NCBI RefSeq assembly: GCF_009831625.1
Contig: NZ_WUUS01000010.1
Location: forward strand, 62,001 to 126,000
Direction of reading: 5' to 3'
Source: Halobaculum saliterrae
GTDB lineage: Archaea; Halobacteriota; Halobacteria; Halobacteriales; Haloferacaceae
DNA: 64,000 nt
Below are positions 57,099-63,536 of this stretch, in pieces. The position numbers and the translations under genes are program-made. The notes beneath the pieces were generated by a model. That model was not told the origin of the DNA. It made no database searches and saw only the letters and a program-made list of their open reading frames with translations. Position 1 is the first letter of the stretch. Each line of letters begins with the position of its first letter.

Positions 57099-58346
57099 CT
57101 ACTCGTACAGCGGGTTCGCGTCGGTCAGCTCGTCGACGCGCTCGCGGACCTCGGCGATGGTCGACTCGTCCTCGACGTTGTCGACGACCCGGTGGATGAG
57201 GTCGCCGACCTCGCGGCAGTCGGCCTCGTCGAAGCCGCGGGTGGTGAGCGCGGGCGTCCCGGCGCGGATGCCCGAGGGGTCGAATGGCGAGCGCGTCTCG
57301 CCGGGCACCGTGTTCGCGTTGAGGACGATGCCGGCGTCGGCGAGCGCCTCCTCGGCGTCGCCGCCGGAGGTGTCGGGGTGGGATTCACGCAGGTCGACGA
57401 GCACGAGGTGGGTGTCGGTGCCGCCGGAGACGACCTCGAAGCCGTTGTCCGCGAACGACTCCGCCAGCGCCTCGGCGTTGTCGACGACCTGCTGTGCGTA
57501 CCCCTCGAACTCGGGCTCCAGCGCCTCGCCGAAGCCGACGGCCTTGCCCGCGATGTTGTGCATCAGGGGGCCGCCCTGCCCGCCGGGGAACACCGCCGCG
57601 TCGACGGCGTCGGCGTGCTCCTCGTCGCACATGACGATGCCGCCGCGACCGGCGCGGATCGTCTTGTGGGTGGAGCCGGTCACGAAGTCCGCGACGCCGA
57701 CGGGCGAGTCGTGGACGCCCGCGGCGACGAGTCCGGTGATGTGGGCGATGTCCGCGAGGTGGTGGGCGCCGACGTCGTCCGCGACCGCCTGGATGCGCTC
57801 CCACTCGACCTCCCGCGGGTACGCCGAGTACCCGGAGACGATGATGTCGGGGTCGAACTCCTCGGCCTGCGTCTCCAGCGCCTCGTAGTCGATGTAGCCC
57901 GTCTCGGGGTCGACGCCGTACTGCTCGACCTCGAACAGCTGGCCGGTGAAGTTCGCGGGATGACCGTGGCTGAGGTGCCCGCCGTGTTCGAGTTCCAGCG
58001 AGAGGATCTTGTCGCCCGGGTCCAGCGTCGCGAGGTAGACGGCCATGTTGGCCTGCGTGCCCGAGTGGGGCTGGACGTTGACGTGCTCGGCGCCCCACAG
58101 CTCCGTGGCGCGCTCGATCGCGAGCTCCTCAACGTCGTCGGCGAACTCACAGCCCGCGTAGTAGCGCTTGCCGGGATACCCCTCGGCGTACTTGTTCGTG
58201 AGGGCGCTGCCCTGCGCCTCCAACACGGCCTCGGAGACGTGGTTCTCGGAGGCGATCATCGCCAGCGTGTCCTGTTGTCGGCGAACCTCGCCCTCGAGGG
58301 CGTCCGCGACGGCCGGATCTGTCTCGCGTACCTCGGGATACTCCAT
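57099..58346 (-). CDS. glyA: Serine hydroxymethyltransferase
   Basis: A 415-residue PLP enzyme converting serine and (H4)folate to glycine and methylene-THF. Motifs: MIASENHVSEAVLEAQGSALTNKYAEGYPGKRYY, the PLP lysine in VTGSTHKTIRAGRGG, and the C-terminal GIRAGTPALTTRGF. Length is normal. It supplies methylene-THF to FolD and PanB, both encoded in this window. Confidence 0.98.
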   Translation of the reverse strand: MEYPEVRETDPAVADALEGEVRRQQDTLAMIASENHVSEAVLEAQGSALTNKYAEGYPGKRYYAGCEFADDVEELAIERATELWGAEHVNVQPHSGTQANMAVYLATLDPGDKILSLELEHGGHLSHGHPANFTGQLFEVEQYGVDPETGYIDYEALETQAEEFDPDIIVSGYSAYPREVEWERIQAVADDVGAHHLADIAHITGLVAAGVHDSPVGVADFVTGSTHKTIRAGRGGIVMCDEEHADAVDAAVFPGGQGGPLMHNIAGKAVGFGEALEPEFEGYAQQVVDNAEALAESFADNGFEVVSGGTDTHLVLVDLRESHPDTSGGDAEEALADAGIVLNANTVPGETRSPFDPSGIRAGTPALTTRGFDEADCREVGDLIHRVVDNVEDESTIAEVRERVDELTDANPLYE

Positions 58347-58444
58347 ACCGATGGTCGGGCGAGCGTCGACAAAAAGCCATGCGTACTCGCGTGCGGCCGG
58401 GCGATACCGATAAATGGGACCGACCCACAGGTCCGTCCAGTCGA

Positions 58445-60526
58445 ATGCAGGTCGAACGGACCGAGGAGGGGTTCCGGGCGGTCGACGCCGCCAAACAGTC
58501 CATCGACGTTCGGGTGGACGGCTGGAGCGACCGCGCCGACGCGTCGATCCCGTCGCTCGAGTCCGCCATCGACGCGCTCGACCTCGGGGACACCTGGACG
58601 CCGGACGCGACGGTGTCGGGGTCGGTCGAGTCCCTCGGGTTTCCGCCGGTGTACGCGCCGATACGCGACGTCGACACCGGGGAGATGTACGACCTCGGCA
58701 GCGGCACCGGCCCGCTGTCGATCCCCGAGGGGTCGTACGCGCTCTGCGTCGAGAGCAGGGTCGACGTGTACGTCCGCTTCGAGGGGGCCGTGACGATCGA
58801 GAAGCCGCGATACGAGCGGCTTCGGGTTCGGTTCCCGACGACGACCGCCGTCGAGATCGGGTTCGCCGGCGGCGTCCACGACGAGCCGGAGACGGTGACG
58901 GTGCCGCGGACGCCCGAGGGAGTCGCGACGGCGCTCTCGACGTTTCCGGCCGGGCATCGCACCTCGACCGCCGACCGCTCGTTCGACAGCATGCGCGGGA
59001 TGCCGCCGCGGATCGCGTTCGGGGAATCGGTCTCGGTTCCAGAGACGCTGCGTGAGTCGCGCGCCGACGCCGACGTGCGTGTCGTCGTTCCTCCGGACCT
59101 CGACTACCTGTTCGTCGTCTCGCCGTTGGCCCACTACGTCGGCGCCGATATCGCCGTCGAGCCGGGGGGTCGCCCCCGTCTCGAAACGCCCGGCGGGATC
59201 CGCACGCTCCCGGGGCTCCCCGAGTTGCAGGACGCGGTCGCCTCGCTGCTCGAACGGACGTTCCACCTCGACTGCGTCGTCAGGGAGGCCGGCCCGCACG
59301 GCTCGGACCTGTCGGTCGGAGCGGTGGCCTCGGAACTCGATCTCGACGCCGAGTCGCTGTACGCCGCATCGCCGGGGGAACGGCTCGACGCGTACCTCGA
59401 GACGCCGTTCGAGTCGGTCCGCGATCGGTTCCCCGAGTGGCACCTGTCGATGTCGATCGACCCCCGGTACGACCACGTGCCGACGCTGTCGCACCTCCTC
59501 GCGAACGTCCCGCATGTCCGGGTCGCGGAGTCCACCGCGCTGCCGGAGTCGGAGTGGCTCGACACCTCGCTGTCCGACTTCTACCGACGCGACGCGGGAG
59601 AGGTCGCGTCCGTCGACCCCGTCCGACCGTCGCTGGGGCCGGGACGTACGCACGGCTGGCTCGCCGAGGGCGTACCGATAGACGCGTTCAAAACGGTTCC
59701 GGAGGCGTACGAGAACCGAGGCCGATACCTCGATTCCGCGGGCGAGCCGATCTCGATCGTCGCGATCCTGAACGACGGGGACATGCGCGAGGAGCACGAC
59801 ACCGTCGCCGCCCACTACCGCGAGCGCGCGGAGGCACTCGGCCTCGAGGTGTCGGTCCGGGAGCACCTCAGCGTCGACGAGCTCGCCTCGACGTTCGAGT
59901 CGCGCACCGACCTCGTCCACTACATCGGCCACTGCGAGCGGGACGGCCTCCGGTGTGCCGACGGCTACCTCTCGGCGTCGTCGCTCTCAGCGTCGAACGC
60001 CCAGACGTTCTTCTTGAACGCCTGCGGCTCCTTCCACGAGGGGGTGGAGCTGATCCGGAAGGGGAGCGTCGCGGGCGCGGTCACGTTCAGCGAGGTGCTC
60101 GACGGGCAGGCCGCGACGGTCGGAACGATGTTCGCCCGGCTGCTCGTCACGGGCTACTGCATGGAGCGGGCGCTCGACAAGTCGCGGCGCCAGATCATGA
60201 CCGGTAAGGACTACGCCGTCGTCGGCGACGGAACGCACGTCCTGACGAAGTCGGAGCACATCGTCGGCACCGACGTTCGCGTGACTCACGCCGGATCGGA
60301 CGGCTTCGACGTGACGGTCTCGATGGGCGCGCCCTGGATGGCGGGCGGGTTCTTCCGGCCGTACCTGCAGGAGGGCGACGAGACGCATCTCTTGGGCGAG
60401 CGCAGGGAGTTCACTGTCGACCGTCCGTCGCTGATCGAGTTCCTCTCGTACGCGGACGCCCCCGTGCTGTTCGACGGGGAACTCCGCTGGTCGAACGAGC
60501 TGGCCGAGGACCTCCGGGGGCCGTAG
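58445..60526 (+). CDS. CHAT/caspase-like peptidase-domain protein of unknown function
   Basis: 693 residues. Residues about 440-600 look like a clan CD (CHAT/caspase-like) peptidase: VAILNDGDM starts the fold, LVHYIGHCERDGL gives the His (496) and FFLNACGSF the Cys (527), then VAGAVTFSEVLDGQAATVGTMFARLLVTGY. The large N-terminal region (about 1-430) is beta-rich with no repeats recognised. No CRISPR or TPR partner is nearby. GATAAATG about 30 bases upstream is the TATA box, setting the ATG at 58445. Candidate: a self-defence or signalling protease; the function is not known. Confidence 0.75.
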   Translation: MQVERTEEGFRAVDAAKQSIDVRVDGWSDRADASIPSLESAIDALDLGDTWTPDATVSGSVESLGFPPVYAPIRDVDTGEMYDLGSGTGPLSIPEGSYALCVESRVDVYVRFEGAVTIEKPRYERLRVRFPTTTAVEIGFAGGVHDEPETVTVPRTPEGVATALSTFPAGHRTSTADRSFDSMRGMPPRIAFGESVSVPETLRESRADADVRVVVPPDLDYLFVVSPLAHYVGADIAVEPGGRPRLETPGGIRTLPGLPELQDAVASLLERTFHLDCVVREAGPHGSDLSVGAVASELDLDAESLYAASPGERLDAYLETPFESVRDRFPEWHLSMSIDPRYDHVPTLSHLLANVPHVRVAESTALPESEWLDTSLSDFYRRDAGEVASVDPVRPSLGPGRTHGWLAEGVPIDAFKTVPEAYENRGRYLDSAGEPISIVAILNDGDMREEHDTVAAHYRERAEALGLEVSVREHLSVDELASTFESRTDLVHYIGHCERDGLRCADGYLSASSLSASNAQTFFLNACGSFHEGVELIRKGSVAGAVTFSEVLDGQAATVGTMFARLLVTGYCMERALDKSRRQIMTGKDYAVVGDGTHVLTKSEHIVGTDVRVTHAGSDGFDVTVSMGAPWMAGGFFRPYLQEGDETHLLGERREFTVDRPSLIEFLSYADAPVLFDGELRWSNELAEDLRGP

Positions 60527-60545: not shown

Positions 60546-60734
60546 TCAGGGCCCCGACGACACGTCGCCGACGCCGGTCGGGTCGGTCGCGAACTCCGTT
60601 GCCACAGCCGCATCCGCAGTGAGGGCCAACGCCAACACGACCGCCAGCACGGTCGCCACCGCGATCCACAGGTGTCGGTTGTCGCCGAGCGTCAGTACCG
60701 ATCCGATCGTTCGTACGCCGAGCGGGCGGACCAT
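60546..60734 (-). CDS. 62-residue single-helix protein
   Basis: A basic N-terminus (MVRPLGVRTIGS), a hydrophobic helix IAVATVLAVVLALALTADAAVA that looks like a signal peptide or anchor, and a short tail ending VSSGP. GTTAAG on the minus strand (60759-60764) is 25-30 bases before its ATG, which supports it as a gene. Divergent from tbsP. No family recognised. Confidence 0.55.
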   Translation of the reverse strand: MVRPLGVRTIGSVLTLGDNRHLWIAVATVLAVVLALALTADAAVATEFATDPTGVGDVSSGP

Positions 60735-60878: not shown

Positions 60879-61697
60879 ATGGCCACCAACGTATTCGAGC
60901 GATCGATGAACGAGGTCCTCCGGTCCCTGTTCGATCGGTCCGCGGGCGAACTCGTCATCGTCGATCCGAACGCGGCGACGCTCGAGTCGCTCATCGACGT
61001 GGGATCCGACTACGACGACGACCTCCCGACGCTGAACGTGCTCGCGGACAGCCGCATGCTCAAGGACGTGATGGACGACTTCCTCGTCGCCGGCGACGCG
61101 GCCGACCTGGTCGACGCCGGGTCGATGACGCTGCGCGAGCTGGACGGCGACGCCGACAACACGCTCGTGGCCGGCGAGGACGAGCTGTACGCAATCGTGT
61201 CGGCGGGAGAACATGTCGCCGCGCTCGCGGCCGACGACGAGTCGTTCGCCGCGGACGCCTATGAGACGTACCGCGGTCAGTGGGCGGACGCGGAGCCGTT
61301 CTCCCTCCGCACGCCGGCGCTCTCTCGCGTCCGCGAGACCCTCGACGAGGACATCGGGGAGGCGGTCCGTGCCGACTTCGACGCGGTGCTCACCTCGCTC
61401 GAGACCGCCCGCGGCGACGGCGACGGTCTCGACGAGGTGACGATCTCGCTGCTCGTCGCCGCGAAGAACGACGTGCTCCTGTACGACATCAGCAAGTGGG
61501 GCGAGGACATCGGCATCGCCTCGAAGGCGACGTTCTCTCGTACGAAGACGCGGCTCGAGGACCTGGGCCTCATCGACACCGAGAAGGTGCCCATCGACGT
61601 GGGCCGTCCCCGCCTCCGCCTGAAGCTCGGGGACGACCGGCTTCGCGAGGCCTCCGGCGACGAGTTGGCGAGCGTCGCCCACCGGATGCTGAACTGA
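60879..61697 (+). CDS. tbsP: TbsP-type transcriptional regulator
   Basis: 272 residues. The C-terminal half carries the conserved block LDEVTISLLVAAKNDVLLYDISKWGEDIGIASKATFSRTK, a winged-helix region, followed by DTEKVPIDVGRPRLRLKLGD. That is the haloarchaeal TbsP (DUF5821) family, reported to act with TrmB in glucose-responsive control of central carbon genes in Haloferax. The N-terminal half (about 1-150) is a possible sensor domain. The family call is from memory; target genes here are unknown. Confidence 0.85.
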   Translation: MATNVFERSMNEVLRSLFDRSAGELVIVDPNAATLESLIDVGSDYDDDLPTLNVLADSRMLKDVMDDFLVAGDAADLVDAGSMTLRELDGDADNTLVAGEDELYAIVSAGEHVAALAADDESFAADAYETYRGQWADAEPFSLRTPALSRVRETLDEDIGEAVRADFDAVLTSLETARGDGDGLDEVTISLLVAAKNDVLLYDISKWGEDIGIASKATFSRTKTRLEDLGLIDTEKVPIDVGRPRLRLKLGDDRLREASGDELASVAHRMLN

Positions 61698-61817
61698 GCC
61701 GGGCGAGCGACCGAGCCGACCGGGCCCCACGCCGAGCGCGCCCGCCGGATCCGACTCCACGGCGGACGTATCCGCCCGACCGGCCACCTTTTTGTGCGAC
61801 TCACTCCACGGGCGGGC

Positions 61818-63536
61818 ATGGACATCGCCATCGTCGGCCCGGACCCCGCCGCCGAGCCGATCCGGGGCGCCTTCGCCGACATCGAAGCGAACGTGATGGA
61901 GGTGAATGCCGGCCTCCTGGACGGGTTCGACTTCGCCGTCGTCGTCGGTACCACCGGCGACGACGCGTTCCGCACCGCGACCCGGCTCGTCGACGACTGG
62001 GTCGCCGTCGAGATCGGCGGCGTCGGCGGCCGCGCGATCGAGGGACTCGACGCCGCGGTCACCGTCTTCTCCGCGGACACCGGCTGTTACGACTGCCTGC
62101 GCGACCGCGTTCGCGCCAACGTCCCGACGACGGACACGACGCCACAGGGAACCCGAAGCGCCGTCCGCTTCGCGGGGGCCCTCGCGGGTCGACGCGCCAT
62201 TCAACACCTCTCGGGAGACGGCGTGGCGGGGACCGTCACCGAGGTCGACGGTCCGGAGCGACGCTTCCTTCCCTCCCCCGGATGCGACTGCGGTGCCGCC
62301 TCGACGGGGTTCGAGCTTCGAGCCCCCGAGGAGCCGGTCGGCCTCGACGACGCCGTCGACCGGATGGACCGGGCGGTCGACGACCGCCTCGGCGTCGTCA
62401 CCGAGGTGGGGGAGCGCGAGTCGGTGCCGGCGCCGTACTACATCGCACGGACGACCGACACCGCCGCGTTCGCGGACACGCGCTGTGCGGAGTTCGGGGC
62501 CGGCGTCGCCGCCGACTGGGACGCCGCATACGCGAAGGCGATCGGCGAGGCGCTCGAACGGTACTGTGCCGGCACCTACCGCGCGTCGTCGTTCCGGTCG
62601 GCGCCGACGGCGGGCGTCGTCGATGCCGTCCCGGTGGACCGGTTCGTCCGCCCCGCCGACGCCGAGACGCCGGAATCGGACGACCACATCCCGTGGGTAT
62701 CCGGGATCGATCTGGCGAGTCGCGAGTCGGCGTCCCTCCCCGCGGAGTTCGTCGTGTTCCCGCCGCCCGAGGAGCGGTTCGCCCCGGCGATCACGACGGG
62801 GCTCGGGCTGGGGAACTCGACGGCCGAGGCGGTGCTGTCGGGGCTGTACGAGACCGTCGAGCGCGACGCGTCGATGCTGGCGTGGTACTCGACGTTCGAG
62901 CCGATGGGCCTCGACGTCGACGACGAGGGGTTCGAGACGCTGCGCAAACGGGCGCGGGCCGAGGACCTCTCGGTGACCGCGCTGCTGCTCACACAGGACG
63001 TGGACGTGCCCGTCGTCGGCGCCGCGGTCCACCGCGATGCCGAGACCGGTGAGTGGCCGCGGTTCGCGATGGGCTCTGCGGCGGACCTCGACGCCGCGGC
63101 CGCCGCCCGGAGCGCGCTCGCGGAGGCGCTGCAGAACTGGATGGAGCTGCGCGCGATGGGGCCCGAGCAGGCGAGCCGCGAGGAGGGCGCGATCGGCTCG
63201 TACGCCGACTTCCCCGAGCGCGTCCGGCAGTTCGTCTCCCCGGACGTGACGCTCCCCGCGGGGGACGTGACCGATGCCGACGCGGCGGAACTCGACGGCG
63301 TCGCCGAGGTCGAGGCGGTCGTGGACCGCCTCGCCGCCGCCGACCTCGACGCGTACGCCGCGCGCCTCACCACCCGCGACGTGGCCGCGCTCGGCTTCGA
63401 GGGCGTGCGCGTGCTCGTCCCCGAGGCGCAACCGCTGTTCACCGGCGAGCCGTTCTTCGGGGACAGACTGGAGTCGGTGTCGGCGTCAATGGGGTTCGAG
63501 CCGGAGCCGGATCGGGCATACCATCCGTTCCCGTAG
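61818..63536 (+). CDS. Fused zinc-site/E1-like and YcaO enzyme
   Basis: 572 residues. The first about 165 form a Rossmann-like part with a Cys pair C90-x2-C93 and C156-x-C158, a likely zinc site like those in the E1-like partners of azoline-forming YcaO enzymes. Residues about 200-570 are YcaO: IGEALERY (ATP-binding Glu/Arg), GLGNSTAEAVLSGLYETVERDA and ALAEALQNWME. YcaO uses ATP to activate peptide amides, making azolines or thioamides. The C-terminus ends AYHPFP, a short proline-bearing tail. The peptide or protein substrate is unknown. TTTTTGTG about 27 bases upstream is the TATA box. Confidence 0.85.
   Translation: MDIAIVGPDPAAEPIRGAFADIEANVMEVNAGLLDGFDFAVVVGTTGDDAFRTATRLVDDWVAVEIGGVGGRAIEGLDAAVTVFSADTGCYDCLRDRVRANVPTTDTTPQGTRSAVRFAGALAGRRAIQHLSGDGVAGTVTEVDGPERRFLPSPGCDCGAASTGFELRAPEEPVGLDDAVDRMDRAVDDRLGVVTEVGERESVPAPYYIARTTDTAAFADTRCAEFGAGVAADWDAAYAKAIGEALERYCAGTYRASSFRSAPTAGVVDAVPVDRFVRPADAETPESDDHIPWVSGIDLASRESASLPAEFVVFPPPEERFAPAITTGLGLGNSTAEAVLSGLYETVERDASMLAWYSTFEPMGLDVDDEGFETLRKRARAEDLSVTALLLTQDVDVPVVGAAVHRDAETGEWPRFAMGSAADLDAAAAARSALAEALQNWMELRAMGPEQASREEGAIGSYADFPERVRQFVSPDVTLPAGDVTDADAAELDGVAEVEAVVDRLAAADLDAYAARLTTRDVAALGFEGVRVLVPEAQPLFTGEPFFGDRLESVSASMGFEPEPDRAYHPFP

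Follow-up and report, generated by a model that had tools for sequence, protein, structure and literature searches.

A predicted CHAT-like cysteine protease of haloarchaea and its convergent -Gly-Pro-ended micro-ORF

We analyzed a 64,000-nucleotide stretch of the Halobaculum saliterrae genome (the window; contig NZ_WUUS01000010.1, positions 62,001–126,000), in which positions 58445–60526 of the forward strand encode a predicted CHAT-like (clan CD) cysteine protease that is likely to be active. The gene is one continuous open reading frame (ORF) for 693 residues. An alternative ATG at 58379 would give 715 residues, and the 58445 start is preferred because relatives of 691–693 residues align from it. 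The closest named relative, from Halobaculum, is 84% identical. Downstream lies a convergent micro-ORF (60546–60734, reverse strand), whose stop is 19 bp past that of the CHAT-like gene. It encodes 62 residues with one hydrophobic stretch and the C-terminus VGDVSSGP-stop, resembles the family DUF7503 in its place and its -Gly-Pro (-GP) end and not in Pfam score, and is the predicted partner of the protease. The micro-ORF lies before the gene of the transcription regulator TbsP (60879–61697, forward strand; NF047393 equivalog), a conserved downstream partner, which is followed by a YcaO gene. On the upstream side, glyA (serine hydroxymethyltransferase, SHMT; 57099–58346, reverse strand) and folD are divergent from the CHAT-like gene; glyA is a syntenic flank that we do not consider a member of the module.

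The structure of the 693-residue protein was predicted with a predicted local distance difference test score (pLDDT) of 87. An N-terminal segment (residues 1–142, 58445–58870) and an α/β middle region (residues 143–366, 58871–59542) precede a caspase/CHAT-like core (residues 434–603, 59744–60253). The original prediction called the N-terminal region β-rich, which holds for residues 1–142 and fails for residues 143–366, where α and β elements are mixed. The C-terminal part aligns in structure with SAVED-CHAT, separase, gingipain and Csx29, and the model thus supports the clan CD, CHAT-like caspase fold that had been suggested for this domain. The best Foldseek match is SAVED-CHAT (PDB 8tl0), which is also the top PDB sequence match for the core profile (E 0.0013, the next at E 1), with the His and Cys aligned. 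Separase and gingipain R gave the highest VIA scores, spanning about residues 331–603/617 at 10–14% identity, and their matches take in part of the region preceding the core, since they start at about 331. In a test for a pseudo-protease domain, these matches begin at about 331, yet the N-terminal model alone returns none of them.

His496 (codon 59930–59932) lies within LVHYIGHCERDG and Cys527 (codon 60023–60025) within FFLNACGS, so that the predicted catalytic residues follow the clan CD order, in which the His precedes the Cys and a hydrophobic strand precedes each. The first core strand comprises residues 436–442 and is followed by Glu450 (codon 59792–59794). In caspases, gingipain and separase, the residue at the equivalent place contributes to the S1 pocket. 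Thus, we infer that Glu450 sits in the S1 pocket and would favor cleavage after Arg or Lys. The curated Pfam model of CHAT, PF12770, matches 21 of 57 family members at E ≤ 1 (best 1.3e-5) and misses the window protein, and for this reason the protein is filed as CHAT-like and not as a PF12770 member. It has no match among NCBIfam, PADLOC or PHROGs models either. The idea of a new class was too strong, because the protein sits beside established CHAT domains in sequence and fold, and relatives already carry the label ‘CHAT domain-containing’ or ‘caspase family’ protein in some public records.

Both residues stand at the positions first given for them and are invariant in the query and all 120 listed relatives (121 of 121). 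We then considered a wider family of 162 open frames of at least 600 residues (E < 1e-10, loci L021–L187), reduced to 160 by removal of two duplicates. The His/Cys pair is kept in 155 of the 160 and absent in five, with no single loss (157 and 5 of 162 before duplicate removal); neither residue varies freely among homologues. Met447, Glu450, His496, Asn525, Cys527, Gly544 and Tyr590 are conserved in 95% or more of intact members and gone in all five dyad-less copies (L110, L127, L145, L170 and L177). All five retain Cys504, Gly507, Ser529 and Gly594, and in the N-terminal half Arg178, Pro187, Asp276, Arg280, Trp332 and others, Arg178, Asp276, Arg280 and Trp332 belonging to the α/β middle region. 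This pattern indicates that the active-site residues go as a set while the scaffold remains, and supports covariation of His and Cys as a pair in the aligned sequences. The dyad-less L145 stands directly behind a GAF/PAS histidine kinase gene, and the dyad-less L127 and L170 have look-alike flanking genes in common.

The convergent micro-ORF recurs across the family. An ORF ending in -Gly-Pro-stop, with its stop within 150 bp, was found at 114 of 160 family genes (those with at least 300 bp downstream, including two duplicate rows and the five dyad-less copies). The same feature was found at 1 of 73 TbsP genes, 0 of 65 glyA genes and 1 of 55 folD genes. Among all other called genes, the two counts were 3 of 992 and 0 of 379. 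The micro-ORF ends overlap or almost touch the protease gene. Among nine micro-ORFs from other loci, three exceeded the DUF7503 cut-off (1.6e-23 to 6.6e-18), two fell below it (5.2e-5 and 6.9e-4) and four had no DUF7503 match. Across 60 genomes, DUF7503 (PF24335) gave 57 matches (56 over cut-off) in 41 genomes, and each of the 57 faces the 3′ end of a family gene in convergent orientation, with a gap of at most 279 bp. Strict -GP ORFs occur at 110 of 153 intact copies and at none of the five dyad-less copies (p 0.002). Haloferax volcanii, in the control set, carries DUF7503; since none of the 41 genomes has DUF7503 without a family gene, H. volcanii very likely also has the CHAT-like protease gene. 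The tails differ between paralogues, with NASTINGP, AMVTYGGP, GSGLNGP and YATVCAGP within one genome (G027) and SHSATNGP at L027.

Comparison of non-synonymous (pN) and synonymous (pS) differences reveals strong purifying selection on the last ten codons of 11 Natrinema peptides (pN 0.017 versus pS 0.544), whose body has a pN/pS of 0.77. Two DUF7503-type sets (n = 7 and n = 11) have a conserved body (pN/pS 0.41 and 0.42) and a somewhat less conserved tail (0.47 and 0.59). At Natrialbaceae loci such as L081, L086 and L090, a near-neutral micro-ORF body is joined to an almost invariant end, KRVSTYGGP, in a comparison whose rows were chosen by their ends. In 26 of 32 Natrialbaceae-type ends, Arg is the eighth residue from the C-terminus, and [NHR]P[RK] is found in 75 of 118 peptides, a few of which are duplicates; both are possible cleavage sites.

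The protein had been described as stand-alone, which is wrong because three kinds of gene partner recur: the micro-ORF, TbsP and DUF7504. The family gene was found at 78 of 80 named loci, and within six called genes of it lie TbsP (71 of 78), glyA (63 of 78) and folD (55 of 78). By profile, TbsP lies downstream on the same strand at 74 of 82 open frames (L021–L100, with L097 split in two and counted twice). Four of the other eight are partial or on cut contigs, and four are true exceptions that retain glyA (L048, L068, L070 and L071). In the 60 genomes, a TbsP_N match lies within 3 kb of 39 of the 119 family loci, 36 of these being downstream on the same strand at 142–797 bp, and 39 of 99 TbsP_N matches over cut-off have a protease gene near. 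Using a profile built from five Pfam-verified proteins, we found a DUF7504-type gene within 2 kb of 35 of 83 family genes (30 of the 35 upstream on the same strand), these 83 (L101–L140, L142–L146 and L148–L187) being mostly paralogues with a few canonical copies; a TbsP-type gene is found at eight of them. By Pfam, DUF7504 lies within 1.5 kb of at least 19 of the 119 loci among its best 150 matches, where about 0.7 would be expected. In agreement with the original prediction, no CRISPR or TPR gene was recognized among the ORFs viewed (51.6–64 kb of the window; no genome-wide CRISPR search was made).

The YcaO gene (61794–63536, forward strand) adjoins TbsP and passes the cut-off of the SagD-type cyclodehydratase model TIGR03604 with 242.6 bits, and a cluster whose example protein appears YcaO-like is present at 26 of the 78 loci. 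MBF1-like zinc-ribbon/HTH proteins, read by eye, are found near paralogues (L101, L121–L125 and L179:3059-3634).

The family is matched in 46 of the 60 genomes, counting that of the window, with at most 11 of the 119 loci in a single genome (G018). This genome also has 16 TbsP_N matches, an unusual expansion. A draw across the phylum, with four candidates scored per genome, gave matches in 51 of 294 genomes, including four from a single family that does not belong to the haloarchaeal order (L189–L192; G095, G086, G076 and G067) and one weak match (G106, E 2.8e-4). L192, from outside the order, retains both catalytic residues (FIGHC, NSC). Relatives occur on 25 plasmid records; none was found in phage records, and none in IMG/VR by pattern scan. 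Tandem copies on one strand were seen at L196 (three family genes, G192:C1:414500-428000) and L195 (two).

We tentatively propose that the CHAT-like protease acts on the -Gly-Pro micro-peptide encoded tail-to-tail with it, and works with a neighboring regulator, TbsP here and DUF7504 in many paralogues. The core would use His496 and Cys527, with Glu450 selecting for cleavage after a basic residue. The micro-peptide would first be synthesized as a precursor, in many cases carrying a hydrophobic stretch like that of a signal peptide, and cleavage would free or remove a short C-terminal -GP piece. TbsP may link the cut to transcription, or the cut may be coupled to the DUF7504 protein. The peptide is favored as the substrate because the tightest links are those between protease and peptide (all 57 DUF7503 matches) and between peptide and active site (their joint absence), and we favor a regulator that acts in the same pathway as both.

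Several observations weigh against this proposal. In Pfam, neither the window protein (0 families at E ≤ 10) nor the window micro-ORF has a match. The five dyad-less copies may represent only about three losses, because three of them share 36–38% identity and may reflect one loss. Five family-bearing genomes lack a DUF7503 match (46 versus 41 genomes), and there are 57 matches for 119 loci. The strict -GP ORF is missing at 43 of 153 intact copies, and 35 of 155 still lack an ORF when GP is allowed anywhere in the last 14 residues; no convergent -GP ORF was found at the four relatives outside the order. Constraint is weak in Halobaculum clade 1 (pN/pS 0.78 for the body and 0.50 for the last ten codons), in a set of the window and five of the eight orthologues given. 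In the DUF7503 type, the residues preceding GP vary freely, which is not what a fixed cleavage site would predict. A hydrophobic stretch that served as a signal peptide would leave the tail extracellular, apart from a cytosolic protease; the -GP ORFs of the Natrialbaceae clade-1 type mostly lack this stretch by eye, which implies that the peptide is not always bound for the membrane or export. Finally, in 12 of the 46 family-bearing genomes no family gene has TbsP within 3 kb, and 40 of the 83 paralogue-rich genes have neither TbsP nor DUF7504 near, as judged by profiles.

A somewhat unlikely alternative makes the micro-peptide a ligand, tether or inhibitor of the protease, and the adjacent regulator or an unlinked protein its true substrate. 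There is precedent in Csx29, which cleaves Csx30, an inhibitor of a sigma factor (excerpt of PMC10028731). Pairing with the regulators (TbsP at 36 of 119 loci, DUF7504 at 35 of 83 genes) fits this view, as does the agreement of the CHAT and TbsP trees (Mantel r 0.70, reached by 0 of 999 permutations; 31 of 80 pairs, being six and every third of the remainder with one locus twice), to which shared species history contributes. The two trees agree in the grouping of L102, L104 and L106, and of L103 with L034. The -GP alone is common to the DUF7503 tails, in rows selected by that end, and would fit a docking end. On the other hand, TbsP occurs in 13 genomes without a family match and can thus function alone, and the 40 genes with neither regulator nearby are harder to accommodate. 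In H. volcanii, TbsP together with TrmB controls gapII and influences motility and biofilm (excerpt of PMC13286277).

Extended further, our proposal would become a haloarchaeal peptide signaling system, in which a dedicated CHAT-like protease frees a -Gly-Pro peptide with its own tail per copy and TbsP or DUF7504 converts the peptide into a cell response. We regard this extension as unlikely at present.

A cell-death or defense module, in which a hydrophobic micro-peptide damages the membrane once released by the protease, or is kept harmless by it, is improbable. The single hydrophobic stretch of many micro-ORF copies, the plasmid records, the 11 loci of one genome and the tandem triplet at L196 speak for such a module. 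However, there is no PADLOC match, relatives were found neither in phage records nor in the IMG/VR pattern scan, many Natrialbaceae peptides lack the hydrophobic stretch, and the canonical copy mostly lies between glyA and TbsP, unlike a defense island.

Still less probable is a leader or ribosome-arrest peptide of the SecM/TnaC kind, in which the -GP-stop of the micro-ORF would stall ribosomes and so regulate the convergent protease gene, for example through an antisense transcript. The near-neutral body and selected end in Natrinema, the similar Natrialbaceae ends (picked as such), the signal-peptide-like N-terminus of other copies and the ORF ends that overlap or almost touch the protease gene suit arrest, whereas the DUF7503 type conserves the body and not the tail before GP, the reverse of an arrest motif, and no same-strand gene follows the micro-ORF in the window. 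Equally improbable is an ordinary housekeeping protease in a frozen gene order, as the glyA-CHAT-TbsP synteny might suggest, since in G018 four loci (L102, L103, L104 and L106) pair with TbsP and have no glyA within the 16–17 kb fetched, and all 57 DUF7503 matches follow a family gene.

As far as we are aware, hardly any archaeal caspase-type protease has defined partners. Should the protease cut the peptide, the two would form a protease-peptide switch, and should the -GP peptide be a signal, the peptide-signaling system would be peculiar to archaea. With widespread candidate proteases (46 of 60 genomes), a putative substrate of about 45–60 residues and a candidate regulator, the mechanism is open to direct tests, and DUF7503 and DUF7504 gain a shared genetic context. 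In the open-licence PubMed Central literature, nothing was found on DUF7503 or DUF7504, or joining ‘CHAT domain’ with Haloferax volcanii or Halobacteria.

Comparison with known systems places the window protein closest to SAVED-CHAT, a CRISPR type III protease, in Foldseek match, core profile and aligned His and Cys. The window protein differs in having no SAVED model match and no CRISPR link seen near, and has the micro-ORF and TbsP or DUF7504 instead. Separase and gingipain R, which have other domains and roles, share the highest VIA scores but only low identity. Csx29 is the TPR-CHAT protein of Craspase, whereas the window protein has no TPR model in the Pfam scan; no Cas7-11 was recognized among the scanned neighbors (glyA, folD, TbsP, YcaO and others), with no genome-wide search made. 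All DUF7503 matches of the 60 genomes are the micro-ORF at family genes; the window micro-ORF is convergent and Gly-Pro-ended and does not score as DUF7503. DUF7504 (PF24336) is the partner of many paralogues, and both are families of unknown function. Caspase-like activity is described in H. volcanii, with no gene named for it in the excerpt of PMC3615174. A family gene is a possible source, but the activity is directed at caspase substrates, and the basic specificity predicted from Glu450 speaks against the link. The RRNPP systems of Firmicutes (excerpt of PMC10075063) differ in that here there is no TPR match, the partner is a predicted protease and the layout is convergent, but in both a short peptide gene stands beside a larger protein, which in RRNPP is its cognate partner.
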